DNA of 64,000 nt from Eubacterium sp. GTDB lineage: Bacteria; Bacillota; Clostridia; Lachnospirales; Lachnospiraceae. A model generated the notes under the pieces. It did not search any database. It was given only the letters and a program-made list of their open reading frames with translations, and was not told the origin of the DNA. The stretch lies in contig JAFRGL010000025.1 of NCBI GenBank assembly GCA_017433825.1, forward strand, positions 62,001 to 126,000, read 5' to 3'. Of the stretch, positions 7,448 through 27,181 are shown one piece after another; the first letter of the stretch is position 1; every line of letters begins with the position of its first letter. The translations under genes and the position numbers were made by a program.

Positions 7448-9364
7448 TTATTCCATCAGCCCTTCCCAGACAAGATAGGCTTCATCAAGCTCTGCAGTAT
7501 ATTTCTCTCTTTCCAGCGTAAGCCTCGCAAGCTCTGCAGCGTTTGAAGCGTTATCCGGAAGATTGATTTCTTCATCCACGGCTTTAATGGCAGCTTCCAG
7601 CTCTTCGATTCTCTTTTCCGCTTTTGCCAGGTCGTTTTTATGCTTAGTGACCCGGGCTTTGTCTTCCTTGTAGGATTTCCAGTCCGCAGCAGCGTTTCCC
7701 GGTTCTCTGCCGGCTGTATCGTTATCATCCGTACCGGCACCCAGATAAATGCTTTCCAGATGTTCCTTTTTCTCCAGGTAATAGTCGTAATTGCCGTCAA
7801 AGGGTATCAGCTTTGTGCCTTTCAGTTCCAGAATCCTCGTGGCGGTACGGTTGATGAAATAACGATCGTGGCTGACATAAAAGACAGTGCCTTCATATGC
7901 GTTTATTGCATCCTCAAGTATTTCCCGGGAGGGCATGTCCAGATGGTTGGTGGGCTCGTCCAGTATCAGGAAATTGGCGTTGGAAAGCATGAGCTTTGCC
8001 AGGGATACCCGGCCCCGTTCACCGCCGGAGAGGTTGCCGATGGGCTCAAATACCTCGTCATTGGTAAACAGGAATGCCGCACAAAGATTTCGGATTTCCG
8101 TTTCCGTCATCATGGGATGTTCGTCGGAAATCTCCTGAAAAACAGATTTTGACAAATCCAGTTCCTGCTGTTCCTGATCATAATAGCCGATTTCCACATT
8201 TGTGCCGAAAACCATGGTGCCCGCGTCTGCAGGAACGAGACCGTTCAAAATCTTCAGAAGGGTTGTTTTACCGGTACCGTTGCTTCCGATTAAAGCTATT
8301 TTTTCACCCCTGTATACGGAAAAATCCAGCCCTTCAAAAAGCGTAAGCTGCGGGAAGCTCTTGGACAGGCCGGTCACTTCCAGCACGTCGTTTCCGCTCG
8401 TTACGGCCGGCGTCAGCGTCAGGTGCATTTCGGAGACATCTTCAGAAGGCTTGTCCAGCCGTTCAATCTTTGCCAGCATCTTTTCACGGGATTCTGCCCG
8501 TTTGATGGATTTTTCCCGGTTGAAGGATTTCAGCTTGGTAATGACGGCTTCCTGATGGCGGATTTCATCCTGCTGCTTCTGCCAGGCCTTCAGCTGCGCA
8601 CGGCGGACAATAGCCTTTTTTTCGCTGTAGGCGGTATAGTTTCCGGTAAATGTCATAGCGGTTTTATTTTCAATTTCAACCACGCGGGTGACTACCCTGT
8701 CCAGAAAATACCGGTCGTGGGAGACGATAAGCACAGCGCCGGGGTATGAGGACAGAAAGCCTTCCAGCCAGCCGATGGAATCCATGTCCAGGTGGTTGGT
8801 GGGCTCATCCAGAAGCAGGATATCCGGTTTGGATACCAGAAGGCGGCCCAGGGCCACCCTGGTTTTCTGTCCGCCGGAGAGGGTGTCAAGCGGTCGGTCG
8901 AAATCCTCCTCTGCAAAACCCAGGCCTTTTATGACGCCCACGGTTTCACTGTGTATGGCATAGCCGTCCGCCAGTTCAAATTCGTGATTCAGCCTTGCAT
9001 AGGTGTTCATCATAGCTTCCAGCTTTTCGCCGCAGGCGTTTTTCATTTCATTTTCCAGATTTCGGAGCGCTTCTTCCTTTTCCAGCACATCTTTTCTCGC
9101 ATCCAGTACATATTCGTAAACGGTCATATCACCGAAAACATCATGGTGCTGGGCCAGATAACCAACCGTAGAGCCGGACTTAAAGGAAATTTCCCCTGAA
9201 TCCGCAGTTTCCTCACCCATGATGATCTTCAGCAGTGTGGATTTGCCGCAGCCGTTGATGCCGGTGAGGGCGGCTTTTTCGTTTTCTTCTATATGAAAAG
9301 TAATATCCTTGAACAGCAGGGCAGTGCCGAAGGATTTTGCGATATTTGCGACGTTAAGTATCAT
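7448..9364 (-). CDS. ABC-F family ATPase (ribosome-associated)
   Basis: A 638-residue protein with two ABC cassettes and no membrane segment, typical of ABC-F proteins that act on the ribosome. Walker A motifs are GINGCGKST near residue 36 and GSNGTGKTT in the second half; signatures are LSGGQKTRVALGRL and LSGGERGRVSLAKL, each followed by LLDEPTNHLD or LILDEPTNHLD. The linker between the cassettes is charged and helical, and the C-terminal 80 residues look like the coiled coil of the YdiF type. The ATG at 9364 is preceded by GGAAGGAAAG. It reads away from rex. Translation factor versus antibiotic resistance cannot be told from sequence; the long C-terminal coiled coil favours a housekeeping YdiF-like role. 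Confidence 0.9.
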   Translation of the reverse strand: MILNVANIAKSFGTALLFKDITFHIEENEKAALTGINGCGKSTLLKIIMGEETADSGEISFKSGSTVGYLAQHHDVFGDMTVYEYVLDARKDVLEKEEALRNLENEMKNACGEKLEAMMNTYARLNHEFELADGYAIHSETVGVIKGLGFAEEDFDRPLDTLSGGQKTRVALGRLLVSKPDILLLDEPTNHLDMDSIGWLEGFLSSYPGAVLIVSHDRYFLDRVVTRVVEIENKTAMTFTGNYTAYSEKKAIVRRAQLKAWQKQQDEIRHQEAVITKLKSFNREKSIKRAESREKMLAKIERLDKPSEDVSEMHLTLTPAVTSGNDVLEVTGLSKSFPQLTLFEGLDFSVYRGEKIALIGSNGTGKTTLLKILNGLVPADAGTMVFGTNVEIGYYDQEQQELDLSKSVFQEISDEHPMMTETEIRNLCAAFLFTNDEVFEPIGNLSGGERGRVSLAKLMLSNANFLILDEPTNHLDMPSREILEDAINAYEGTVFYVSHDRYFINRTATRILELKGTKLIPFDGNYDYYLEKKEHLESIYLGAGTDDNDTAGREPGNAAADWKSYKEDKARVTKHKNDLAKAEKRIEELEAAIKAVDEEINLPDNASNAAELARLTLEREKYTAELDEAYLVWEGLME

Positions 9365-13400: not shown

Positions 13401-16010
13401 TTGGCTGAGACAAAGAAAAATAACGGAAAGAAAAATACCGTTAAGAAAACGCCGGTGAAGGATACAAATAAGGAAACACCGGAGAATCTGGAAAAAGAAG
13501 CAATATGGAAACGGGATATTACCTTCCTTATTATCTTCGGCGTTGCCGTGCTTCTGATGCTTTCCAATTTTGGTATCTGCGGCGTTATCGGCCGGGGACT
13601 TAAGTTTTTCTTCTTCTGCCTGTTCGGCGCGGCAGCTTACGCCTTCCCCTTCGTGCTTTTCGCAGGGGCGGTTTACTATGTCATTAACCGGAAAAAGAAA
13701 CGGCTGAAAAGGACCTACATCGGCCTTTGCGGCCTTTTTCTGCTGGCCTGCGCGCTCCTGCAGATGATTTCCGTTGATGATCCTGCGGGCATGAAGATTT
13801 CGGATATCTTCACCTACGGTCCTCTTTACAACTACGGCGGCGGTTTCTTCGGCGGAATTATCGCCAAGGCACTGGCCGGCGGCTTGGGAAGGGCAGGCGC
13901 GTATGTCGTCATTATTATCGGTATTGTTATTTTTGCCATCATCCTGACCCAGCGTCCCCTGGTTTCTGAAGCGAAAAAGAAGGGAACGGAAGTATATAAG
14001 GATGCCAGGCAGAAGGTCAAAGAGGCAAAAGAAAGAAGGGAAGAGATCAGAAAAGCCAATGCTGAGGCTGTTCAGAAGCCTGTCCTGGATTTCGAAGATC
14101 TGGATGAGGAAGACAACGGACAGTATGCATTTAACGTACGGCATGAGATAACCTCAACAGAAGCCAAATCCGGGCCCGGTCCGGTTGTAACCAATATTAC
14201 TGCCAGCCCGGAGAGAAAGAAAACCTCCAGGCCTGCCGCAAGCCTGGAGATTCCGCCGTTCCTGAAAGGCTACGGCCTGAAGCCCTTTGACAATCAGAAG
14301 GAGGAAACACCCGCACCCGCCATGCCTGCAGAGGCTGAAGTGCGTCCGGCTGCTGAAAAAAGGCAGGCTCCCGCGGAAGAACCGGTGACAGAACCGGTTA
14401 ACCATTCTGAAGCTTCCGAAACGCCCGCCGTACGGAAAGGCGCCGCAAGGCCAAGGTCTTCACAGGAAGAGATTGCGGAAGGCATAGAGGAAGTGTCAAA
14501 AGAAATCGCCGGGGAGGCGGTAAAGGCCGCTCCCGTATACCAGCTTCCGCCTCTTTCCCTCCTGAATGCCGGTGGGGGCGTAAACCAGAATCTTATGAAC
14601 GCCCAGGTTCAGGAAACTGCGGACAAGCTGCAGAAAACCCTGGACAGCTTTGGCGTAGCCGCAAAAGTTACCGGCTTTTCCTGCGGACCCACGGTAACCA
14701 GATATGAACTGGCGCCGGAACAGGGCGTTAAAGTAAGCCGAATCATCAGCCTCGCCGATGATATCAAGCTGAACCTGGCGACTGCGGACATCCGTATCGA
14801 AGCGCCGATTCCGGGAAAAGCCGCGGTAGGCATCGAAGTGCCGAACCAGACCAATGCCAGCGTAGCGTTAAGCGACCTGCTGCGTTCCGATGAATTCAGG
14901 AACTTCAAATCAAAGCTTGCCTTTGCCGTGGGCGTAGACCTCGCGGGCAAGATTGTAGTCACGGATATTGCCAAAATGCCGCATCTTCTGATTGCCGGCG
15001 CTACAGGCAGCGGCAAATCCGTCTGTATTAATACGCTTATTTTAAGCCTGCTTTACAAAGCCACGCCTGATGAGGTCAAATTCCTGATGATTGACCCGAA
15101 GGTTGTGGAGCTGCAGATATTTAATGATATTCCGCATCTGCTTATCCCTGTGGTGACCGATCCGAAGAAGGCCGCCGGTGCCTTAAACTGGGCCGTAACC
15201 GAAATGAGCAGAAGGTACAATCTTTTTGCCGAATTTAATGTAAAGGATCTTTCATCCTACAACACAAAGGCGAAATCCCTGCAGGGACTGGCCGGTGAAG
15301 GTGAAAAGGATCCCGAAATTCTTCCCCAGATTGTCATTATCATCGACGAGCTGGCCGATTTGATGATGACTTCTCCCCAGGAAGTAGAAGACGCCATCTG
15401 CCGCCTGGCCCAGCTGGCCAGGGCTGCGGGACTGCATCTTGTTATTGCCACGCAGAGGCCTTCCGTCAATGTCATCACCGGCCTTATCAATGCAAATATG
15501 CCTTCCAGAATTGCCCTTTCCGTTACCAGCGGTACGGATTCCAGGGTTATTATCGATATGGTCGGCGCCGAAAAGCTGCTGGGTAAGGGCGATATGCTGT
15601 TTTACCCGCAGGGCTATGCCAAACCCGCAAGGGTGCAGGGCGCTTTCATCTCCGATGATGAAATTGCAAAAGTGGTAGATTTCCTTAAGAGCCAGCGGCC
15701 GGAAGATTCAGTATCCTATGACGCAAAGATACAGTTTTCCGTGGACAATTCTTCGTCTGCAGACGGCGGTTCCGCCGCAGCGGATGACAGGGATCCCTAT
15801 TTCTTTGACGCAGGTAAATTTATTATCGAGAAAGACAAAGCCTCTATCGGCATGCTGCAGCGCATGTTCAAGATAGGGTTTAACCGCGCTGCCCGGATTA
15901 TGGATCAGCTGTGCGAAGCAGGCGTAGTCGGCGAGGAAGAAGGCACCAAGCCGAGACGCATCCTGATGACGGCAGCGGAATTTGAAGAATATACGAAGGA
16001 GAACAAATGA
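13401..16010 (+). CDS. ftsK: DNA translocase FtsK/SpoIIIE
   Basis: An 869-residue septal DNA pump that clears chromosomal DNA during division or sporulation. The N-terminal 200 residues hold about four membrane helices, followed by a Pro-, Glu- and Ala-rich linker (about 210-390), then the motor with Walker A GATGSGKS near residue 533 and Walker [13 protein letters not shown]. The last 65 residues form the winged-helix gamma domain that reads orienting sequences. The start is likely TTG at 13401, 10 bases after AGGGAG, giving a typical MAETKK opening; a GTG at 13392 sits too close to that site. Its stop overlaps the next gene by four bases. Confidence 0.93.
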
Positions 16011-17404
16011 TTAGAATATGTCCCAACTGCGGAGCGGAGGTGCCGCCGGGGGATGTCTTCTGCCCGGTCTGCGCGGAAGAAATTCAGCTTGTTCCCGACT
16101 ATGATTCCATCTCCAACCGTATAAGGGAAAGAGAGATGCACGAACAGGAGGAACAGCGGAAAAAAGCCGAAGCCCTCCTCCGCGCTAAAAAAGAAGAAGA
16201 ACGTAAAAGAGCCAGAAGACGCAGGAGAATCCTGACGGCTGTTATCTGTATCATCATCATAATGGCTGTGGTATTCATACTCGGCTACCGTTACCTGAAC
16301 CATAAGGATTCCGAGTTTGAAAACCTGTACCAGAAAGCCAAAACAGAATACCAGGCCCAGAATTATCAGGAAGCCTATGACGTGATAAATGAAGCGCTGG
16401 CCAAGGATCCGGAAAGCATTTCCGCCCGAATTCTTAAAGCCCAGATTGCGAAAACGCTGGGCAAAGCAGATGAAGCGGAAAGCCTTCTCCTGGATGTAAT
16501 TGCGGAAAAGCCCTCCAGTAAAGATGCTTACCGGGAAATACTGGACATTTACATGAATGAAGGCGCGTTCGAACAGATGCGCGACCTCATGGCGGCATGC
16601 ACAGATTCATCCATCCGGATGGCTTTTGCCGAATACATCTGCTCCGAGCCGGTGTTCAGCATTGCGCCGGGCGAATATACAAGGGAGCTGGATGTGCATC
16701 TTTCATCCGAAAACGATGCGGTCATTTATTTTACGGCCGACGGCAGCGAACCGGACGAAAAAGCGCAGCTTTATGAAGGCACCATTCATTTAATCAACGG
16801 CGAAACGACCATTAACGCGGTTGCCATCAAACCGAACGGCATACGCAGTACGGTTTCTTCCGGTATGTATACGGTGAAAACCAGCGGCCTGAATCCGCCG
16901 GAAGTAACTCCGGCAAGCGGCAATTACCAGTCTGTCGAGCCGGAGAAAATTATGGTAATCGTACCGGTCGGCTGCACCTGTTATTACACCTTTGACAAGA
17001 GAGCCACGCGGACAGACGAAGTATATACCGGCCCCGTAGACATGCCGGAAGGCAGTCATATTTTCTACTGCTTCATTATTGACGGTGCAGGTGAAGTAAG
17101 CCAGCAGACCATACGAACCTATGTGTTCCGTAAGCTGGCGCCGACACCCACACCTACGCCCGAACCTACGGAAACGCCCACACCCACACCTTCACCTACC
17201 GCGAAGCCGACTGCGACACCCACACCTACGCCGGCACCCACGGAAGAACCGACACCGGAACCGACAGAAGAACCGACACCGGAACCGACGGAAGAACCGA
17301 CGCCGGAGCCTACGGAAGAACCGACGCCGGAACCGACGGAAGAACCGACCCCGGAGCCCACCGTGGAACCGGATAATCCGGACGGTGAAGAAGGAGGAAA
17401 CTAA
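16007..17404 (+). CDS. Zinc-ribbon, TPR and CHB_HEX_C-like membrane protein with Pro-Thr tail
   Basis: A 465-residue protein. Residues 5-22 form a zinc ribbon (CPNC and CPVC); about 35-74 is a very basic helix; 75-97 is a membrane segment; about 105-210 resembles TPR repeats; about 215-290 resembles the chitobiase C-terminal (Fn3-associated) beta domain ([11 protein letters not shown]), with a second, weaker copy to about 375; the remainder is Pro-Thr-Glu rich. With the ribbon inside, the TPR and beta domains would face outside and the tail could span the wall. ATGA coupling with ftsK suggests shared expression and perhaps a division-site role. Function is unknown. Confidence 0.8.
17243..17362 (+). 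repeat. Five tandem 24-base repeats coding EEPTPEPT
   Basis: Five copies of a 24-base unit, residues 413-452 of the gene, with silent third-base differences (aca, acg, acc), so the peptide is kept more strictly than the DNA. Copy number is prone to change by slippage. Confidence 0.9.
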
Positions 17405-17451
17405 TATATAAACTGGCCTGAATGCATTATATCAGGCGGAAAGGAAGCTTC

Positions 17452-18336
17452 ATGTATCCTGTATTATCCAAAGAAAAGCTTTCCGAAAACATTTACCGTT
17501 TTGTTGTGGAAGCGGAGAACGTATCCCGGCATTGTCTTCCGGGACAGTTCCTGATTGTCAAAACCTTTGAGAACTCTGAACGTATTCCTCTCACCATCTG
17601 TGATTATGACAGGGAGAAGAAGACGGTGACAATCGTTGTCCAGACTGCCGGCTTTTCCACTCAGTTGATGACAGATCTTAAAGAGGGAGACGCGTTTTAC
17701 GACGTTGTCGGGCCTTTGGGAAAACCATCAGAGCTGACCGGACAGACACCGGAAGAACTGGCAGAAAAGAAGATCGTCTTTGTGGCCGGCGGCGTCGGAA
17801 CGGCACCGGTATATCCCCAGGTGAAATGGCTTTATGAGCGGGGTGTGAAGTGTGACGTCATCATCGGTGCGAAAAACAAAGACCTGGTCATTATGGAAGA
17901 TGAGTTCAAAGACATCTGCAACCTGTATATCACTACGGACGACGGTTCCTACGGCAGGAACGGTATGGTCACGAAAGCTCTGGAAGATCTGGTTCAGGAA
18001 GGGAAACAGTATGATCTTTGCATTGCCATCGGACCGATGATTATGATGAAGTTCGTCTGCATTCTTACAAAGAAGCTTTCCATTCCCACAATTGTAAGCA
18101 TGAATCCCATTATGGTTGACGGTACCGGCATGTGCGGTGCATGCCGTCTGACAGTGGGAGACGAGGTGAAATTTGCCTGTGTTGACGGCCCGGAGTTTGA
18201 CGGCCATCTGGTGAATTTTGATGAAGCCATGAAAAGGCAGCAGATCTATAAAACCGAAGAAGGCAGGGCCATGCTGGCGGCAAAAGAAGGAAAGACCCAC
18301 CATGGCGGCTGCGGCAATTGCGGAGGTGAAGAATAA
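17452..18336 (+). CDS. nfnA: Sulfide/dihydroorotate dehydrogenase-like FAD/NAD-binding subunit (NfnA-like)
   Basis: A 294-residue ferredoxin-NADP reductase-fold subunit. An FAD domain (RIPLTICDYD) is followed by a nucleotide domain with FVAGGVGTAPVYPQ and a C-terminal [2Fe-2S]-type cysteine set, GTGMCGACRLTVGDEVKFAC. With the next gene it matches NfnAB, the complex that bifurcates electrons between NADH, ferredoxin and NADPH. The ATG at 17452 follows AAGGAAG; an in-frame ATG 30 bases upstream lacks a site. A short inverted repeat (GCCTGA/TCAGGC, 17416-17437) lies just before. Its last base overlaps the next start. The same subunit can pair with glutamate synthase-like proteins, hence some uncertainty in substrate. 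Confidence 0.88.
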   Translation: MYPVLSKEKLSENIYRFVVEAENVSRHCLPGQFLIVKTFENSERIPLTICDYDREKKTVTIVVQTAGFSTQLMTDLKEGDAFYDVVGPLGKPSELTGQTPEELAEKKIVFVAGGVGTAPVYPQVKWLYERGVKCDVIIGAKNKDLVIMEDEFKDICNLYITTDDGSYGRNGMVTKALEDLVQEGKQYDLCIAIGPMIMMKFVCILTKKLSIPTIVSMNPIMVDGTGMCGACRLTVGDEVKFACVDGPEFDGHLVNFDEAMKRQQIYKTEEGRAMLAAKEGKTHHGGCGNCGGEE

Positions 18337-19730
18337 TGGCTGATATGATGAAAAAGGTTCCGGTACGTGAACAGGACCCGAAAGTAAGAGCGGCAAACTT
18401 TGAAGAAGTCTGCCTCGGATATAATGAAGAAGAAGCTGTTGCTGAAGCGGAAAGATGCCTGAACTGCAAGAATCCCAAATGTGTGACCGGCTGCCCGGTG
18501 AGCATTGATATTCCCGGATTTATCTCTGAGATTAAAGAAAAGAATTTTGAAAAGGCCTATGAAGTTTTAAGCCTTTCCACCTCCCTTCCGGCCGTATGCG
18601 GCAGGGTCTGTCCCCAGGAAAGCCAGTGCGAAGGCAAATGCATCCGCGGAATCGCGGGCGAAGCGGTATCCATCGGCAAGCTGGAACGTTTTGCAGCGGA
18701 CTGGGCAAAGAGCCAGGGCATCGGCCCGAAAAAACCGGAGAAGACCAACGGCCATAAGGCAGCCGTCATCGGTTCAGGCCCCGCAGGCCTTACCTGTGCC
18801 GGTGAACTCGCAAAAATGGGCTATGAAGTGACCATTTTCGAGGCGCTTCACAAAGCCGGCGGCGTTTTGAGCTACGGAATTCCGCAGTTCAGGCTGCCCA
18901 AGGATACCGTTGTGGACCCGGAAGTGCAGAATGTTATTTCCCTCGGTGTGGAAATCAAAACAAATATGATTGCCGGACGTTCTGTTACCGTTGACGAGCT
19001 CTTCGATGACGGCTTTGAAGCTGTCTTTATCGGTTCCGGCGCGGGCCTTCCCATGTTCATGGGCATTCCCGGCGAAAATGCCAACGGCGTATTCTCCGCC
19101 AATGAATACCTGACCAGGGTTAATCTGATGAAGGCCTACAGGGACGACTATGATACCCCGGTTATCAGGGGTAAAAAGGTTGTAGTCGTAGGCGGCGGCA
19201 ATGTGGCGATGGATGCGGCCAGGACAGCTCTCCGCCTCGGAGCGGAAACCTATATTGTATACCGCAGAAGCGAGAAAGAGCTTCCCGCCAGAGCGGAAGA
19301 AGTGGAGCATGCGAAAGAGGAAGGCATCAATTTCCGGCTTCTTACAAACCCGGTGGAAATCCTCCAGGACGAAAACGGCTGGGTTTCCGGTATCCGCGTT
19401 ATCCGGATGGAACTGGGCGAGCCCGACGCTTCCGGAAGGAGAAGGCCGGTCGAGGTACCCGGCAGCGAATTTGAAATCGAAGCCGATACGGTCATCATGG
19501 CCCTGGGAACCACACCCAACCCTATGATTTCCGAAAGCACCCCCGGACTTGAAATCAACAGAAAGAAATGTATCGTGACGGATGAGGCAACCGGCCGGAC
19601 GTCCAGGGAAGGCGTCTTTGCGGGCGGCGACGCGGCTACAGGCTCCGCCACGGTTATCCTGGCCATGGGCGCAGGCAAGGCTGCCGCAGCTGCCATGGAC
19701 GAATATATCAGGAATAAAAATCAGGCATAG
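18336..19730 (+). CDS. nfnB: NADPH-dependent glutamate synthase-like subunit (NfnB/GltD-like)
   Basis: A 464-residue flavoprotein. The N-terminal 140 residues hold the paired cluster cysteines (CLNCKNPKCVTGCPVSIDIP, then CGRVCPQESQCEGKC); next is the FAD site GSGPAGLTCAGELA and an NADPH-type Rossmann motif GGGNVAMDAARTAL. This is the large subunit pattern of NfnAB and the small subunit pattern of glutamate synthase; the adjoining NfnA-like gene and absence of a gltB-type gene favour NfnAB. The ATG shares a base with the previous stop (TAATG), so translation is coupled. It links NADPH, NADH and ferredoxin pools, fitting the Rex and butyryl-CoA genes in the window. Confidence 0.88.
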   Translation: MADMMKKVPVREQDPKVRAANFEEVCLGYNEEEAVAEAERCLNCKNPKCVTGCPVSIDIPGFISEIKEKNFEKAYEVLSLSTSLPAVCGRVCPQESQCEGKCIRGIAGEAVSIGKLERFAADWAKSQGIGPKKPEKTNGHKAAVIGSGPAGLTCAGELAKMGYEVTIFEALHKAGGVLSYGIPQFRLPKDTVVDPEVQNVISLGVEIKTNMIAGRSVTVDELFDDGFEAVFIGSGAGLPMFMGIPGENANGVFSANEYLTRVNLMKAYRDDYDTPVIRGKKVVVVGGGNVAMDAARTALRLGAETYIVYRRSEKELPARAEEVEHAKEEGINFRLLTNPVEILQDENGWVSGIRVIRMELGEPDASGRRRPVEVPGSEFEIEADTVIMALGTTPNPMISESTPGLEINRKKCIVTDEATGRTSREGVFAGGDAATGSATVILAMGAGKAAAAAMDEYIRNKNQA

Positions 19731-19738
19731 GAGGCATT

Positions 19739-20308
19739 ATGTCCCTTACAGAAGAACTGGAAGAATTTATATCCCGGTTTCCGGTTTACCAGTATGCATT
19801 TGTTACCCCGGAGCAGATTCATTTTAATGACAGCGTAGTTGAAATCTGCAAAAGGGAATGTCCGCATTACAATACATCCTGGGCCTGCTACCCGGCTGTG
19901 GGAAAAGTATCGAAAAGCAGGGCCAGATGTCTGAAATATGACGGCGCGCTGGTTTTTTCCACGGTTACCAAGCTGGACAATCCCGATTCCCGCAGAGACA
20001 GGCTGGAGACCAAAACCCAGCATGAAAAGCTGACGGGGATCGTCGCTGACCAGATGACAGGCATGGGCTTAAGGCCCTACATTCTGACCAGTGATTACTG
20101 TACGAACTGCCTGCGCTGCGGTTTCCCGCAGGAGTACTGCAGGCACCCGGAGGTTTTGTATCCCTGTATAGAAAGCAACGGCATTGTAATGTCGGATTTA
20201 CTGGAATTCTGCAAGATGGACAATTATATGAGTGACGATTTAAGCCTGTGGTTTTCCATTATTTTCTTTGAAGATCCCGCCAGTATAAAGGAGCATTTTA
20301 ATGGCTGA
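19739..20308 (+). CDS. DUF2284 cysteine-rich metal-binding protein
   Basis: A 189-residue predicted metal-binding protein of the DUF2284 type. Cysteines occur in groups: CKRECPHYNTSWACYP in the first third and YCTNCLRCGFPQEYC followed by YPC in the second. This pattern suggests an iron-sulfur or other metal site. AGGAGG precedes the ATG. It lies 8 bases after nfnB and overlaps phoH by 8 bases. Some family members accompany redox enzymes; a link to NfnAB is inference only. Confidence 0.8.
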   Translation: MSLTEELEEFISRFPVYQYAFVTPEQIHFNDSVVEICKRECPHYNTSWACYPAVGKVSKSRARCLKYDGALVFSTVTKLDNPDSRRDRLETKTQHEKLTGIVADQMTGMGLRPYILTSDYCTNCLRCGFPQEYCRHPEVLYPCIESNGIVMSDLLEFCKMDNYMSDDLSLWFSIIFFEDPASIKEHFNG

Positions 20309-21308
20309 TACCATAGTTGAAGAAAGAATCGAGATACCCGCAGACCATGAATCGAATATTTTCGGCCAGTATGACACGTTTGCCAAAAAGCTGGAGAAAG
20401 CCTACCGTGTTTCCCTTGTAAGTCGTGACGGCATCCTGCGCATTATCGGCCCGGCCGGTAACGTATCCGAAGCCAAAAATGCCCTTTCACAGCTGCTGCT
20501 TCTGTCGCTGCGCGGCAAAACCATCACCGAGCAGAATGTCAATTACCTCATAGCGGCTTCCATGGAAAAGGAAAACCTGCTCATCTGCCTCGATGACGAC
20601 TGTATCTGCCATACCATTACCGGCAAGCCGGTCAACCCGAAAACGCTGGGACAGAAAAACTACGTCGATTCCATGCGGAACAATATGGTAACCTTCGGCA
20701 TCGGCCCGGCGGGTACCGGCAAAACTTATCTGGCCATGGCCATGGCCATTACCGCCTTCCGCAACGAAGACGTAAGCCGTATCATCATGACCAGGCCGGC
20801 TATCGAAGCGGGAGAGAAGCTGGGCTTCCTGCCCGGCGACCTCCAGAGCAAGGTAGATCCCTACCTGCGCCCCCTGTATGACGCTCTTTACCAGATAATG
20901 GGCGCGGAGACCTTCCAGAAAAATATGGAAAAAGGCCTGATAGAAGTAGCGCCCCTGGCCTATATGAGGGGCCGTACACTGGACAACGCCTATATTATTC
21001 TGGACGAAGCCCAGAATACCACCCAGGCGCAGATGAAAATGTTCCTGACTCGTATCGGCTTCGGCTCGAAGGTCGTCATTACCGGCGATACCTCACAGAA
21101 AGACCTTCCCTCCGGTGTCAAATCCGGACTGGACGTGGCCCTTAAAGTACTGAAAGGCGTGGAAGGCATTGCCATCTGCAATCTGACCAGCAAGGATGTG
21201 GTAAGGCATCCGCTGGTACAGAAAATAGTGGAAGCCTACGAAGCATACGAAGCGAAACATCCCGAAAATGCTGACGGCAGAAATAACAGGAGATATGTAC
21301 GTAAATGA
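20301..21308 (+). CDS. phoH: PhoH-family ATPase
   Basis: A 335-residue PhoH-like protein: an N-terminal KH-like region (about 20-100) followed by a P-loop ATPase with GPAGTGKTYLAMAMA near residue 135 and Walker B AYIILDEAQN. PhoH proteins are RNA-linked ATPases usually next to ybeY, as here. The ATG has AAGGAG upstream inside the end of DUF2284. The four-base overlap with the next gene indicates coupling. Likely role: RNA handling together with the YbeY domain encoded next. Confidence 0.93.
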   Translation: MADTIVEERIEIPADHESNIFGQYDTFAKKLEKAYRVSLVSRDGILRIIGPAGNVSEAKNALSQLLLLSLRGKTITEQNVNYLIAASMEKENLLICLDDDCICHTITGKPVNPKTLGQKNYVDSMRNNMVTFGIGPAGTGKTYLAMAMAITAFRNEDVSRIIMTRPAIEAGEKLGFLPGDLQSKVDPYLRPLYDALYQIMGAETFQKNMEKGLIEVAPLAYMRGRTLDNAYIILDEAQNTTQAQMKMFLTRIGFGSKVVITGDTSQKDLPSGVKSGLDVALKVLKGVEGIAICNLTSKDVVRHPLVQKIVEAYEAYEAKHPENADGRNNRRYVRK

Positions 21309-22681
21309 AGCTTTTTGTCGAAAATGAAGCAAAACTGAAGCTGGGGTTCAACTTCGAAACAGTCGCCCGCCAGGTGGCGGAAAAGGTTCTGGACCTGGAA
21401 AACTGCCCCTATGAGGCCCAGGTATCCCTCCTCCTTACGGACAGTGCCCAGATCCGTATCATGAACAGGCAGTTCAGGAACATAGACAGCGAGACGGATG
21501 TACTTTCCTTCCCCCTTGTGGATTTTGAAAAGCCGTCTGATTTTGCCTCACTGGAAAGCATGGAGGATGTCTTCGATCCGGAAACCGGCGAACTGATGCT
21601 GGGGGATATCGTTATTTCTGCTGATAAGGTGCTGGAACAGGCGGATGATTACGGCCATTCCGTAAAAAGGGAATTTGCCTTCCTTGTTGCCCACAGCATG
21701 TATCATCTTCTGGGTTACGACCACATGACCGATTCGGAAGAAGAGGAAATGACCGCGAAACAGGAGCAGGCATTAAAGCAGCTGGGAATTACAAGGGATG
21801 CGGCGGACCCGGACCGAATCCGGGAGCATTTCCGCGATAAGTCCAGAATCGTGGTGAAGATCGGTTCATCTTCCCTGACTCATGCGGAAACCGGAAAGAT
21901 TGACCTAATCAAGCTGGAAATTCTCGTACGGGAGCTTTCCGATCTGGCCATGCGCGGCAAGGAAGTGGTCCTGGTATCTTCGGGGGCCATTGCCACCGGC
22001 AGGGATGCCCTGCAGATGATGGACAGGGAACTTAACCTGGCCATGAAGCAGGCCTGCGCTTCTGTGGGCCAGGCAAAGCTGATGATGCTGTATCAGAAGC
22101 TCTTTTCGGAATACAACCAGATCTGCAGCCAGGTCCTTCTGACCAAGGACATTATGCTGGACGATGTCGCCCGCAACAATGCCCGCAATACATTCAACGA
22201 ACTTTTAAGTCTGGGCGTTATTCCTGTTGTCAATGAAAACGATACCGTTGTCACCGACGAGATTGACAAGCTGTCTGTTTTCGGAGATAATGATACGCTT
22301 TCCGCTGTCGTGGCAGCCCTGATCCACGCGGATCTGCTGATTCTGCTTTCCGACATTGACGGGCTGTATACCGATGACCCTCGTCAGAATCCGGATGCGG
22401 AATTCATACATGTTGTGGAGAAGATGGATGATCATTTCGCTTCCATGGGCAAAAGGAGTACCGGGAGCAAGGTGGGAACCGGCGGAATGGCCACCAAGCT
22501 GTCCGCAGCCCGCATCGCCACAGGCGCAGGAGCGGATATGGTGATAGCCAACGGGGAAGATTTCCACGTGCTGCACCGGATTATCAACGGGGAGCCCTAC
22601 GGCACCGTATTCCTGGAAAATGCCAGGGATGAATTCTATCTGCTGGACTATTTAAGGAAAGAAGGGCAGGAAGAATCATGA
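21305..22681 (+). CDS. ybeY-proB: Fusion of YbeY endoribonuclease and ProB glutamate 5-kinase
   Basis: A single 458-residue frame. Residues 1-163 are YbeY, the metal-dependent RNase for 16S rRNA maturation, with all three zinc ligands in HSMYHLLGYDH (His130, His134, His140). Residues 172-458 are a short ProB without PUA domain: RIVVKIGSSSLTHAETG, SSGAIATGRDAL, NENDTVVTDE and the kinase loop KVGTGGMATKL. ProB makes glutamyl-5-phosphate, the first proline step. Where a separate ProB would begin, the codon is ATC (21818-21820), no ATG, GTG or TTG lies in frame close by, and no ribosome site precedes it. Start overlaps phoH; end overlaps DUF896. Fusion of these unrelated functions is unusual; an assembly error must be ruled out. 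Confidence 0.9.
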   Translation: MKLFVENEAKLKLGFNFETVARQVAEKVLDLENCPYEAQVSLLLTDSAQIRIMNRQFRNIDSETDVLSFPLVDFEKPSDFASLESMEDVFDPETGELMLGDIVISADKVLEQADDYGHSVKREFAFLVAHSMYHLLGYDHMTDSEEEEMTAKQEQALKQLGITRDAADPDRIREHFRDKSRIVVKIGSSSLTHAETGKIDLIKLEILVRELSDLAMRGKEVVLVSSGAIATGRDALQMMDRELNLAMKQACASVGQAKLMMLYQKLFSEYNQICSQVLLTKDIMLDDVARNNARNTFNELLSLGVIPVVNENDTVVTDEIDKLSVFGDNDTLSAVVAALIHADLLILLSDIDGLYTDDPRQNPDAEFIHVVEKMDDHFASMGKRSTGSKVGTGGMATKLSAARIATGAGADMVIANGEDFHVLHRIINGEPYGTVFLENARDEFYLLDYLRKEGQEES

Positions 22682-22890
22682 TTAATCTCGAACGAATCAA
22701 CGAACTTGCAAGGAAATCCAAAACAGTGGGCCTGACCGAAGAAGAAAAAGACGAACAGGCGCTGCTGCGGGCGGAATATATCGCGTCCGTCAGGAGGAAC
22801 CTGAAGGCGCAGCTGAACAATATTGACATACAGGAAAAAGACGGCACAATTACCAACCTGGGAGAGAAATACGGAGACCAGTTACCATGA
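22678..22890 (+). CDS. DUF896 (YnzC-like) small protein
   Basis: A 70-residue helical-hairpin protein with MINLERINELARKSK and LTEEEKDEQALLRAEYI, the signature of DUF896/UPF0291 (YnzC). Overlaps of four bases on both sides (ATGA) couple it to proB and proA. YnzC in Bacillus is an SOS-associated small protein of unclear function. Its place between two proline genes is the notable point. Confidence 0.9.
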   Translation: MINLERINELARKSKTVGLTEEEKDEQALLRAEYIASVRRNLKAQLNNIDIQEKDGTITNLGEKYGDQLP

Positions 22891-24131
22891 ATTTAAACGA
22901 AACAGGCGCGAAAGCCAGAGAAGCCCGTTATATTCTTGAAAAATGTCCCTCCGGGGAGAAAAACCGGATTCTTGCAGCCTGCGCTGACGCGCTGGAAGCG
23001 GAATATGAGAAAATTGTGGAAGCAAATGCCATTGATATGGCAAACGGTGAAAAGAAAGGCATGTCCAAAGGACTGCTCGATCGTCTGCTGCTTACGAAGG
23101 AGAGAATTGCCGGCATTGCTGACGGCCTCCGGGACGTTTGCGCACTGCCGGATCCCATCGGTGAAGTAACCGGCATGACCAAAAGGCCCAACGGACTCCT
23201 TGTGGGCACGAAAAGGGTGCCTTTAGGCGTTGTGGGCATGATTTACGAAGCCCGGCCGAATGTGACGGTGGACGCTTTCGGACTTTGCTTCAAGACCGGC
23301 AATTCCGTCATCCTGAAGGGCGGAAGCGACGCCATCCATTCCAATATCGCCATTGTGGATGTGCTTCGGAAGACCATTGAAGACTGCGGCATGACACCTG
23401 ATGTGCTCCAGCTGATTACGGATACGGACCGTCAGGTTACCGTGGAACTGATGAGGCTGAACAAATACCTTGACGTGCTGATTCCAAGGGGAGGCGCGGG
23501 CCTGATTCAGACCGTGGTGAACAACAGCACGGTTCCGGTCATCGAAACCGGCATCGGCAACTGCCATATTTTCGTGGATGAAAGCGCGGACATGGATATG
23601 GCGGAGAATATTATCATCAATGCCAAAACCCAGAGGGTCGGCGTGTGCAATGCCTGCGAATCCCTGGTGGTGCACAGGGCCGTCCTGGATAAGATTCTTC
23701 CCCGGCTTTCGGAAAAACTGGCGGAATACAATGTGGAAATGCGCTGCGACGAAGAAAGCATCGGTTATGTAAAAGGCGGCGTTCCCGCGTCGGAAGAGGA
23801 CTGGGGCACGGAATACCTTGATTATATTATTTCGATTAAAACCGTCGGAAGCCTGGATGAAGCCATCGCGCATATCAACAAATACAATTCCGGCCATTCC
23901 GAGGCGATTATTACGGAGAACTATACCAACGCGCAGAGGTTCCTGGACGAAATTGATGCGGCGTGCGTCTATGTGAATGCTTCCACACGCTTTACGGACG
24001 GCGGTGAATTCGGCCTCGGCGCGGAGATAGGAATCAGCACCCAGAAACTCCATGCCAGGGGGCCGATGGGACTTCTGGCGCTTACAACCACAAAACATAT
24101 TATTTACGGGTCTGGTCAGGTTCGTAAGTAA
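22887..24131 (+). CDS. proA: Glutamate-5-semialdehyde dehydrogenase
   Basis: A 414-residue ProA that reduces glutamyl-5-phosphate to the semialdehyde with NADPH, second step of proline synthesis. Typical motifs: RVPLGVVGMIYEARPNVTVD near residue 113, the catalytic cysteine in TQRVGVCNACESLVVH, and FTDGGEFGLGAEIGIST near the C terminus. Normal length. It closes the gapless run and has no obvious terminator before the crt promoter. Confidence 0.96.
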   Translation: MNLNETGAKAREARYILEKCPSGEKNRILAACADALEAEYEKIVEANAIDMANGEKKGMSKGLLDRLLLTKERIAGIADGLRDVCALPDPIGEVTGMTKRPNGLLVGTKRVPLGVVGMIYEARPNVTVDAFGLCFKTGNSVILKGGSDAIHSNIAIVDVLRKTIEDCGMTPDVLQLITDTDRQVTVELMRLNKYLDVLIPRGGAGLIQTVVNNSTVPVIETGIGNCHIFVDESADMDMAENIIINAKTQRVGVCNACESLVVHRAVLDKILPRLSEKLAEYNVEMRCDEESIGYVKGGVPASEEDWGTEYLDYIISIKTVGSLDEAIAHINKYNSGHSEAIITENYTNAQRFLDEIDAACVYVNASTRFTDGGEFGLGAEIGISTQKLHARGPMGLLALTTTKHIIYGSGQVRK

Positions 24132-24169
24132 TTACCAGTTGACTTTCTTATTTTTGTATTTATTTGGAA

Positions 24170-24187
24170 TTGACAAAAAAATAACAT
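24170..24187 (+). promoter_or_regulatory. Candidate Rex operator
   Basis: TTGACAAAAAAATAACAT matches 10 of 14 defined positions of the Rex consensus TTGTTAA-N4-TTAACAA and covers the -35 hexamer, where bound Rex would block RNA polymerase. Rex is encoded at 9560. The match is by eye. Confidence 0.5.
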
Positions 24188-24197
24188 ATATTATACT
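24170..24197 (+). promoter_or_regulatory. Promoter of the butyryl-CoA operon
   Basis: TTGACA and TATACT with 16 bases between, 80 bases upstream of crt. The leader also holds AAAATG-TGTT-CATTTT (24215-24230), a small inverted repeat. Confidence 0.75.
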
Positions 24198-24277
24198 GGT
24201 ATAGTATGATAGATAAAATGTGTTCATTTTATTGTATTTAAAGAAACATAAGTATATTTATGAAAAGGAGAGAAACT

Positions 24278-25108
24278 ATGGAATTCGTAACCTACGAAGT
24301 TGAAGGCGCCGTTGGTATCATTACCATCAATCGTCCGAAGGCCCTCAATGCGCTGAACAGCACGGTTCTTGACGACCTCAACGAGGCTTTTGACAGTGTT
24401 GACCTTAATGTTGTCCGCTGCATCATCCTCACAGGCGCAGGTGAAAAATCATTCGTTGCCGGCGCAGACATCGGCGAGATGAGCAACCTGACAAAGGCTG
24501 AAGGCGAAGCCTTCGGTAAGAAGGGCAATGACATCTTCAGAAAGATCGAAACCTTCCCCATCCCCGTAATTGCTGCTGTTAACGGTTTTGCCCTTGGCGG
24601 CGGATGCGAGATTTCCATGAGCTGCGATATCCGTCTCTGCTCGGACAACGCCGTATTCGGACAGCCTGAAGTAGGCCTCGGCATCACCCCCGGCTTCGGC
24701 GGCACCCAGAGACTTCCCCGTCTCGTAAGCCCCGGCATGGCGAAGCAGATGATTTACACCGCCAGGAACATCAAGGCTGCGGAAGCATACCGCATCGGTC
24801 TTGTAAACGAGGTGTGTTCTGAAGTTAAGGATCAGGAAGGCAATGTTGTCAAATCCGCACAGGAAGCCCTTATGGACGCTGCCATGAAGATGGCCAAAGG
24901 CATTGCCGCACAGGCTCCCATCGCCGTACGCAACTGCAAGAAAGCCATTAACGAAGGTCTCCAGGTTGACATGGACCAGGCTATCGTTATCGAAGAGAAG
25001 GTGTTCGGCGACTGCTTCGAGACAGAAGACCAGAAAGCCGGCATGGGCAATTTCCTTGAGAAAGACAAGGAAAAGAAACTCAAAGTTGTTCCTTTTAAGA
25101 ACTGCTAA
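24278..25108 (+). CDS. crt: Short-chain enoyl-CoA hydratase (crotonase)
   Basis: A 276-residue crotonase that hydrates crotonyl-CoA, or in the fermentative direction dehydrates 3-hydroxybutyryl-CoA. The oxyanion-hole motif GAGEKSFVAGADIGEM and the ALGGGCEISMSCDIR stretch are present. An insertion (KDQEGNVVKSAQ) near residue 190 makes it slightly longer than the 260-residue norm. The ATG at 24278 follows AAAGGAGAG. First gene of crt-hbd-bcd-etfB-etfA; codon use is biased as in highly expressed genes. Confidence 0.93.
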   Translation: MEFVTYEVEGAVGIITINRPKALNALNSTVLDDLNEAFDSVDLNVVRCIILTGAGEKSFVAGADIGEMSNLTKAEGEAFGKKGNDIFRKIETFPIPVIAAVNGFALGGGCEISMSCDIRLCSDNAVFGQPEVGLGITPGFGGTQRLPRLVSPGMAKQMIYTARNIKAAEAYRIGLVNEVCSEVKDQEGNVVKSAQEALMDAAMKMAKGIAAQAPIAVRNCKKAINEGLQVDMDQAIVIEEKVFGDCFETEDQKAGMGNFLEKDKEKKLKVVPFKNC

Positions 25109-25165
25109 TTAAAGGTATTTCTTAATTATAATAGTTCTCAAAAAATAAATCAGGAGGAAATTTTA

Positions 25166-26005
25166 ATGAAGGTTGGAGTTATCGGCGCAGGAACAATGGG
25201 TTCCGGTATTGCACAGGCGTTTGCCTCCACTGAAGGCTACGAAGTATTTCTTTGTGACATCAACGAAGAATTCGCAGCAAACGGCAAGAACAAAATTGCC
25301 AAAGGTTTTGAGAAGAGAATCGCAAAGGGTAAGATGGAGCAGGCTGCTGCTGACGCTATCCTTGGCAAGATCACCACTGGTGTAAAAGACATCTGCACAG
25401 ACTGCGATCTTATCGTGGAAGCTGCTGTTGAAAACATGCAGATCAAGAAAGCTACCTTCAAGGAGCTTGATGAGATTTGTAAGGAAGACTGCATTTTCGC
25501 CAGCAACACTTCTTCCCTGTCCATCACCGAAATCGGTGCTGGCCTGAAGCATCCCATGATCGGCATGCATTTCTTCAATCCGGCTCCCGTTATGAAGCTC
25601 ATTGAGGTTATTGCCGGCCTCAACACCCCCGAATGTGTTGTTGAGAAGATCATTGAGATCTCCAAGGAAATCGGCAAGACTCCTGTTCAGGTTCAGGAAG
25701 CTGCCGGATTCGTTGTAAACCGTATCCTTATCCCGATGATCAACGAAGCAGCAGGTATCCTTTACGAAGGCGTTGCCTCCGCGGAAGATATCGACACTGC
25801 CATGAAGCTCGGCGCAAACCATCCCATGGGACCGCTTGCCCTCGGCGATCTGGTAGGCCTTGACGTTGTTCTTGCGATTATGGACGTTCTGTATACTGAG
25901 ACCGGCGATTCCAAGTACCGCGCTCATCCGCTTCTTCGTAAGATGGTTCGCGGCGGCAAGCTGGGTCAGAAGACAGGCTGCGGCTTCTTTGATTATACAA
26001 GGTAA
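25166..26005 (+). CDS. hbd: 3-hydroxybutyryl-CoA dehydrogenase
   Basis: A 279-residue NAD(P)-dependent enzyme reducing acetoacetyl-CoA to 3-hydroxybutyryl-CoA. The N-terminal Rossmann motif is VIGAGTMGSGIAQAFA; catalytic SNTSSLSITE and GMHFFNPAPVMKL follow, and a C-terminal helical domain contains NRILIPMINEA. AGGAGG precedes the ATG. Length and motifs are standard for Hbd of clostridia. Confidence 0.96.
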   Translation: MKVGVIGAGTMGSGIAQAFASTEGYEVFLCDINEEFAANGKNKIAKGFEKRIAKGKMEQAAADAILGKITTGVKDICTDCDLIVEAAVENMQIKKATFKELDEICKEDCIFASNTSSLSITEIGAGLKHPMIGMHFFNPAPVMKLIEVIAGLNTPECVVEKIIEISKEIGKTPVQVQEAAGFVVNRILIPMINEAAGILYEGVASAEDIDTAMKLGANHPMGPLALGDLVGLDVVLAIMDVLYTETGDSKYRAHPLLRKMVRGGKLGQKTGCGFFDYTR

Positions 26006-26029
26006 TAAATCTATAACGGAGGAATAGAC

Positions 26030-27181
26030 ATGGATTTTACAATTGATAAAAAACATGAAATGGCGAGGAACCTGTTCAAAGAGTTCGCTGAGACTGAAGT
26101 AAAGCCTCTCGCTCAGGAAGTTGACGAAACCGAACAGTTCCCGGAAGAAACCTTTAAGAAGATGGCCAAGAGCGGTTTCCTTGGCATCGCTGTTCCGAAG
26201 CAGTACGGTGGCCAGGGCTGTGATGTTCTTACCTACATCATGGCAGTTGAAGAGATGGCTAAGGTCTGCGGCACCACCGCAGTTGCCCTTTCCGCTCACA
26301 GCTCCCTTTGCATTGACCCCATCCTGTTTTACGGCACAGAAGAGCAGAAGCAGAAATACGTTCCGAAGCTTGCCAGCGGCGAATGGCTTGGTGCTTTCGC
26401 ACTGACCGAGCCCATGGCCGGTACCGATGCCCAGGGCATGCAGACCAAGGCTGTTCTGGAAGGCGACGAATGGGTTCTGAACGGATCCAAGTGCTTCATC
26501 ACCAACGGCAAGGTTGCCCAGGTTTACATCATCTTCGCAGTAACCGGTATCGTTGAAAAGCGCGGCCGCAAGTCCAAAGAAATCTCTGCTTTCATCGTAG
26601 AGAAGGGCACCCCCGGCTTTACCTTCGGCGTGAAGGAAAAGAAGATGGGTATCCGCGGTTCTTCCACCTATGAGCTGATCTTCACTGACTGCCGTATCCC
26701 GAAGGAAAACCTTCTCGGCAAGCAGGGCAAGGGCTTCTCCTATGCAATGCATACTCTTGACGGCGGCCGTATCGGTATCGCTGCTCAGGCTCTGGGTATT
26801 GCTGAAGGCGCCATTGATGCTACTATCAAATATGTAAAAGAGAGAAAGCAGTTCGGCAAATCCATCTCCTCATTCCAGAACACACAGTTCACTCTGGCAG
26901 AGCTTGCTACCACTACCCAGGCTGCGCAGCTTATGGTTTACCGTGCTGCACTGGCGAAGCAGAACCAGCCCGTTTACACTGTAGAAGCTGCCATGGCCAA
27001 GCTTTTCGCCGCCCAGACAGCAATGGAAGTTACTACCAAGTGCGTACAGCTCTTCGGCGGCTACGGCTATATCCGTGAGTACGATGTTGAGCGTATGATG
27101 CGCGATGCCAAGATTACCGAGATCTACGAAGGAACTTCAGAAGTTCAGCGTATGGTTATCTCCGGAAATATTTTAGCTTAA
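26030..27181 (+). CDS. bcd: Butyryl-CoA dehydrogenase
   Basis: A 383-residue short-chain acyl-CoA dehydrogenase. FAD-binding FALTEPMAGTDAQGM and FITNG are present; the catalytic base is Glu367 in IYEGTSEVQR. Next to etfB-etfA it forms the Bcd-Etf complex that reduces crotonyl-CoA while sending electrons to ferredoxin (flavin-based bifurcation), as known in clostridia. GGAGGA precedes the ATG. Strong codon bias indicates high expression. Confidence 0.95.
   Translation: MDFTIDKKHEMARNLFKEFAETEVKPLAQEVDETEQFPEETFKKMAKSGFLGIAVPKQYGGQGCDVLTYIMAVEEMAKVCGTTAVALSAHSSLCIDPILFYGTEEQKQKYVPKLASGEWLGAFALTEPMAGTDAQGMQTKAVLEGDEWVLNGSKCFITNGKVAQVYIIFAVTGIVEKRGRKSKEISAFIVEKGTPGFTFGVKEKKMGIRGSSTYELIFTDCRIPKENLLGKQGKGFSYAMHTLDGGRIGIAAQALGIAEGAIDATIKYVKERKQFGKSISSFQNTQFTLAELATTTQAAQLMVYRAALAKQNQPVYTVEAAMAKLFAAQTAMEVTTKCVQLFGGYGYIREYDVERMMRDAKITEIYEGTSEVQRMVISGNILA

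Follow-up and report, generated by a model that had tools for sequence, protein, structure and literature searches.

The window analysed here is a 64,000-nucleotide stretch of contig JAFRGL010000025.1 from Eubacterium sp. (Lachnospiraceae), in which ybeY and proB are joined in a single forward frame of 458 codons plus TGA that contains no internal stop (Table 1). The first-pass annotation had read this frame as the rRNA-maturation RNase YbeY, with His130, His134 and His140 intact, followed by a complete short glutamate 5-kinase (ProB), and family models above their cut-offs on both halves confirmed this reading. The YbeY half matched PF02130 (148.1 bits against a cut-off of 25, residues 15-160) and TIGR00043 (142.8 bits against 45), the YbeY models together spanning residues 15-164. 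The ProB half matched TIGR01027 (315.3 bits against 186, residues 181-441) and PF00696 (150.8 bits against 24.9), and no Pfam match to a PUA domain was obtained in the fused protein. Searches of the organism's own genome for a second copy of ybeY or proB returned the fused gene as the sole match (assembly 92.66% complete).

The three histidines, whose codons begin at 21692, 21704 and 21722, are conserved at 90% or more in an alignment of 39 rows (36 fused and three kinase-only rows). Arg58, identified by eye in the alignment rows covering that position, is the conserved Arg of the YbeY half, and presumably has the role of its counterpart in E. coli YbeY. The ProB motifs K185, SGA 226-228, NEND 310-313, GDND 327-330, GTGGM 391-395 and K398, which we take to serve catalysis and nucleotide binding, are invariant or nearly so; Lys185, Ser226-Gly227, Asn310, Asn312-Asp313, Gly327-Asp-Asn-Asp330, Gly391-Thr-Gly-Gly-Met395 and Lys398 are unchanged in 39 of 39 rows.

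The structure predicted for the fused protein consists of two folded domains (mean pLDDT 81.4, pTM 0.63). In structure comparisons, the YbeY half of the model resembles the solved YbeY 7y7o (TM 0.87), while the kinase half resembles the solved glutamate kinase 2w21 (TM 0.90) and also 2j5t. YbeY ends in a helix (143-159), which is followed by a loop (160-168), a second helix (169-178) and the first kinase strand from residue 181. Residues 161-170 average a pLDDT of 62, and with the modest pTM the modelled orientation of the two domains to each other is tentative. The same kinase domain and motifs are found in the PUA-less short glutamate 5-kinases, such as Campylobacter jejuni 2ako (241 residues in the model; 35% identity by fold alignment); however, 2ako and the Lachnospiraceae ProB proteins (280-294 aa) are free enzymes.

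Table 1. Features of the fused ybeY-proB gene and its operon in the window
Feature	Position	Strand	Basis or remark
DUF2284 gene	19739..20308	+	PF10050; 8-base overlap with phoH
phoH (ybeZ-like), upstream partner of ybeY	20301..21308	+	PF02562, 323 bits; stop overlaps the ybeY start (ATGA, 21305-21308)
AGGAG, probable ribosome-binding site for the fusion	21288..21292	+	12 bases 5' of the ATG; duplex -7.4 kcal/mol
Fused ybeY-proB gene	21305..22681	+	Frame reading and profile matches
YbeY domain, residues 1-164	21305..21796	+	Ends LGITR, where the free YbeY of genomes G088 and G397 stops
YbeY metal-binding motif H130-x3-H134-x5-H140	21692..21724	+	Sequence
In-frame ATG, Met149	21749..21751	+	Preceded by GAAGAGGAA; most plausible internal start, yet a general YbeY-family residue
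Junction/linker, residues 165-180 (16 residues)	21797..21844	+	Contains ATC at 21818-21820
Glutamate 5-kinase (ProB) domain, residues 181-458	21845..22678	+	TIGR01027; fold match
DUF896 gene	22678..22890	+	PF05979; start overlaps the stop of the fused gene (ATGA)
proA, enzyme after ProB	22887..24131	+	NF001221, 604 bits; 4-base overlap between its start and the DUF896 stop

From the DUF2284 gene through phoH, ybeY/proB and DUF896 to proA, successive genes overlap by 8, 4, 4 and 4 bases. The fusion is a further packing step in an already tight operon, which is presumably read as one transcript. A promoter scan of positions 17300-24300 gave 12 promoter-like sites against 7.2 expected; the site at 22263, one of the two best, sits within the kinase, and a whole ProB is impossible from there. 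Upstream, the window encodes at 16007-17404 a protein that combines a zinc ribbon, TPR and chitobiase C-terminal/Fn3-associated domains with a long repeat tail. Downstream, positions 24260-27181 hold an enoyl-CoA hydratase (Pfam) and then two more frames, which from their translations we take to be a 3-hydroxyacyl-CoA dehydrogenase and an acyl-CoA dehydrogenase; this stretch looks like a butyrate-type operon.

At the junction, the first-pass annotation had named ATC as the codon where a free ProB would begin and had seen neither an in-frame start nor a ribosome site close by. Codon 172 is indeed ATC, but the ProB starts of free relatives (MNDRIRE, MNIRE) align slightly before it, with codons 168-170. 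Linker codons 165-180 contain no ATG, GTG or TTG, as claimed; in-frame ATGs are nevertheless present at codons 141 and 149, and the second of these had been overlooked. It follows a weak Shine-Dalgarno-like stretch, GAAGAGGAA, which has a duplex energy of -5.9 kcal/mol and a purine run that touches the ATG (spacing 0).

The same one-frame fusion was found in six of the seven genomes of the genus, at 57-100% identity. In the seventh, G004, contig C23 stops at base 8653, within phoH; this genome also encodes on contig C54 (L149) a ProA-like protein that is just 38% identical to the ProA of the window. The first-pass annotation had named a junction stop or frameshift as evidence against the fusion; the assemblies of all six resolved genomes have neither, and the junction is stop-free at each of the fused loci. 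In all six, the linker starts at the point (GITR or GISR) where YbeY terminates as a free protein in G088 and G397, and it varies among them in length (14-15 codons) and in letters (20-64% identity). Four of the six linkers are without ATG, GTG or TTG, whereas that of G003 has an ATG and that of G002 a GTG. Between the window and G001, dN/dS was 0.22 for YbeY, 0.20 for the linker (14 codons) and 0.08 for ProB; all values computed in the 15 pairwise comparisons among the six genus loci, with dS above 1 or not computable almost throughout (saturated), ranged from 0.07 to 0.31 for YbeY and ProB and from 0.20 to 0.98 for the linker, which hints weakly at constraint on both halves. The fusion is real and is conserved at the level of the genus.

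The database search for YbeY-ProB architectures that had been proposed as a check yielded 35 clusters with both domains among the 120 matches listed, at 99% to 55% identity; these include the window's own type (P0002, 99%), seven clusters of a doubtful type exemplified by P0021, and the truncated P0036. An additional fused cluster, P0176, came from a search with the YbeY region. By their database source names, P0018 is labelled Candidatus Alectryocaccobium and P0081 Candidatus Alectryocaccobium stercorigallinarum, a genus placed in Lachnospiraceae by its authors (PMC8035907). As the kinase halves of P0081 and the genus member G006 are identical, this is likely the genus of the window as well.

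Several apparent fusions did not hold up as architectures. The seven near-identical clusters of the doubtful type (P0019, P0021, P0022, P0023, P0025, P0026 and P0027) differ from one another at the junction, where they carry either in-frame deletions or a frameshift. The unfused G463 is 96% identical to them in the kinase and 97% in YbeY, and compared with it they read as though the frame had shifted within the final codons of YbeY or as deletions across the junction; the type was rejected as a stable architecture and is treated here as probable rare mutants or assembly errors. Long "open frames" among 60 genomes that suggested extra fusions in genus g287 (G431, G436, G440, G451, G473 and G474) were likewise rejected, as they run through stops: none of 18 loci with both genes (18 of the 60 genomes) is fused, because in each the ybeY frame meets one or more stops before proB is complete. 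A separate observation is P0185, a 458-residue ProA-YbeY chimera on one 4.5-kb contig, possibly a misassembly or a deletion within the corresponding operon.

Phylogenetic analyses addressed the number of origins. A careful ProB tree grouped 29 of 32 fused rows (87/92), with the remaining three sitting among unfused rows, and all fused rows came together in 0 of 200 bootstrap trees. The ProB data rejected a single clade of all fused proteins (AU p 0.0097), as well as the union of the main fused group with P0021/P0025 (AU p 0.016), and did not reject its union with P0029 (AU p 0.437), which is known from one 3-kb contig. When the two domains were concatenated, 26 of 28 fused rows formed one side of a branch (93/95); P0029 adjoined the unfused G300 (95/96), and P0021 fell within an unfused genus. 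The YbeY-only tree set the window's three rows apart from the other 24 genus-type fused rows by a weakly supported split (49/71), and a quick ProB tree likewise kept the window's rows apart from the other fused rows, whereas the careful ProB tree and the concatenated tree placed them together. Because of the YbeY-only and quick ProB trees, a single origin within the genus is not proven.

Relatives with separate genes suggest how the fusion arose. Both genes lie on one contig in 17 of 30 same-family genomes, with ybeY upstream on the same strand in all 17, at distances of 8 bases to 9.5 kb (match coordinates). In G088, which belongs to a different genus, ybeY ends LGITR-TAG and is followed by 18 bases and the proB ATG, all in one frame (L011, 2365-2388). 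In G016, ybeY ends 2 bases ahead of the proB ATG, out of frame, and in G397 and G268 the two genes are direct neighbours, also out of frame. phoH lies upstream of the adjacent pair in all four of these genomes, and DUF896 and proA lie downstream in G088 and G397. Separate genes with like flanks, the other finding that had been named as speaking against the fusion, were thus encountered, but outside the genus only (G088, G397, G016 and G268), where they leave the fusion unrefuted and show its likely ancestor. Among the listed matches from 397 family genomes, those spanning both domains came from G000 and G003, which are fused, and from G088, with one TAG inside. Named-genome loci, mostly from Lachnospiraceae, included no fusion in the best 80 of 135 loci, in which near-window records may be missing; ybeY was found upstream on the same strand, 0.6-5.6 kb off, in 21 of the 80, and was absent from the examined flank in 59.

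Given the near-fusions of G088 and G016, and a linker that starts where free YbeY ends, the simplest origin would be the loss of a stop, a mechanism that is well supported although we infer it. Genes between ybeY and proB would first have been deleted, and the stop between the two now adjacent operon genes would then have been lost in the ancestor of the genus, with or without a small deletion; the mutation itself is a reconstruction. The product would be a single protein with both enzymes active in it at 1:1, as in the cautious wording of the first-pass annotation that the fusion "may simply fix" such a ratio, and the pairing would add no special regulation beyond that ratio and an expression shared with proA. 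We consider it likely that an intact ybeY and an intact short proB are made as one polypeptide with a predicted size of about 50 kDa, that the two halves fold and function separately, and that stop loss was their route to fusion.

A single two-enzyme protein is accordingly the product we expect as likely, but the gene might instead give two, a full-length YbeY-ProB and a free kinase that is begun at Met149 or cleaved off in the linker. The in-frame ATG149 does sit behind GAAGAGGAA, and an ATG is present at codon 148-150 in all six fused loci, 32-35 residues before the first kinase strand, with a duplex of -9.5 kcal/mol in G001; the linker ATG of G003 has a duplex of -10.0 kcal/mol at spacing 1. 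However, the duplex energies at the shared ATG range from -2.3 to -9.5 kcal/mol over the six loci, the spacing in the window is 0, and Met149 is a general residue of YbeY, present throughout the 40 unfused rows (39 places, G397 being entered twice) and in 29 of the 30 fused ones, so its presence is uninformative about a start. P0008 has Leu in its place. P0081 is publicly annotated as a 305-aa kinase starting at the counterpart of Met149, but this start was chosen by the annotator: G006 has the same kinase half as P0081, and its DNA is open upstream of this Met. Two products from the fused gene seem unlikely to us.

The single-protein reading raises the question of whether its halves work together, on which the other fusions of YbeY bear. 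In a YbeY-region search covering proteins of about 252-800 residues, the best 120 of 814 clusters had, by our count, ProB as the partner in 35 cases, cytidine deaminase in 33, PhoH in 17, DgkA in two, and Era and ProA in one each, besides 14 without another Pfam domain and 17 others. Eight YbeY clusters, 471-519 residues long, gave no further Pfam match (P0129-P0131, P0133, P0135, P0141, P0143 and P0158); P0129 and P0135 have a membrane-like N-terminal half, and P0135 occurs on 32 contigs. YbeY-Era fusions have been described in some Clostridia, Selenomonadales and Thermoleophilum (PMC10582724; PMC6738653). Like the fusion studied here, they have YbeY N-terminal and an operon neighbour C-terminal in one frame (for example P0201); however, Era itself takes part in ribosome assembly and binds YbeY, whereas ProB is a metabolic enzyme. 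The fusions with cytidine deaminase and PhoH also join YbeY to a protein commonly encoded beside it, since ybeY of S. aureus has cdd and ybeZ as neighbours (PMC6738653), and differ in the partner and, in P0122, in having PhoH N-terminal. In titles and abstract openings of the open-licence papers listed, we found neither a YbeY-cytidine deaminase fusion nor any tie or fusion between YbeY and ProB. YbeY-ProB, as read from these sequences, adds a partner to a known series, in which YbeY-Era is published and the PhoH and cytidine deaminase fusions were seen here. From the side of the kinase, P5CS of plants and animals is a GK-GPR fusion (PMC11061531) and resembles the present protein in joining a glutamate 5-kinase domain to another enzyme. 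In P5CS, however, the kinase comes first and is followed by a ProA-type reductase, whereas here the kinase comes second and proA has a frame of its own; the P5CS model TIGR01092 scored 187.3 bits on the fused protein, below its cut-off of 796.75.

P0176, a 439-aa protein encoded on a 242-kb contig, keeps an open YbeY-ProB frame, but its kinase half has NENS for NEND and lacks ten residues of the DGLYTDDP loop as well as GTGGM. In the YbeY tree it adjoins P0008 (93/8). Its kinase half may be dead and held in frame by YbeY, or may be an arm that serves another purpose. A search with this half listed 120 matches, none of which was a further fused protein with a decayed kinase.

Such a protein would suit a regulatory coupling in which sensing of glutamate, proline or ATP by the kinase half, or its oligomerisation, gives it control over YbeY and 16S rRNA maturation. 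The fusion is old and kept throughout the genus, the solved relatives of the kinase half include, by the titles of their structure entries, tetramers, filaments and a bundle, and P0176 has retained the frame after its kinase half lost key motifs. Against this, operon adjacency by itself accounts for the pairing, the linker differs from locus to locus in length and letters, and fusions of YbeY to PhoH and to cytidine deaminase make the choice of partner look driven by neighbourhood. Coupling of this kind appears quite improbable to us. Its most explicit form, in which the kinase half is a metabolic or oligomerising arm of YbeY that tunes 16S rRNA maturation through glutamate, ATP, proline or assembly, and in which the P0176 lineage lost the chemistry and kept the arm, we consider very improbable. 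Neither a special link between ribosome quality control and proline synthesis nor later cleavage, both mentioned in the first-pass annotation, is supported here: the place of the two genes in the operon accounts for their pairing, and YbeY fuses to other neighbours as well. That ribosome maturation and proline synthesis are functionally tied is unproven and, from the present data, unlikely.

That a sequencing or assembly error removed a stop or frame break is scarcely credible and is rejected for the genus: some other fused clusters (the P0021 type) do look as if a frameshift or deletion at the junction had joined genes that are otherwise separate, but six separately assembled genus genomes agree on the fusion with different linkers, and it recurs in protein clusters from other sources.

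The fusion joins an rRNA-maturation factor to an unrelated metabolic enzyme. Separate genes, a 2-base gap, one in-frame stop and the fusion itself form a natural series for the merging of operon neighbours. YbeY fuses repeatedly to its usual neighbours, and such fusions are therefore no proof that the partners work jointly. If the coupling were functional, ribosome maturation would be tied to the amino-acid state of the cell through one polypeptide.
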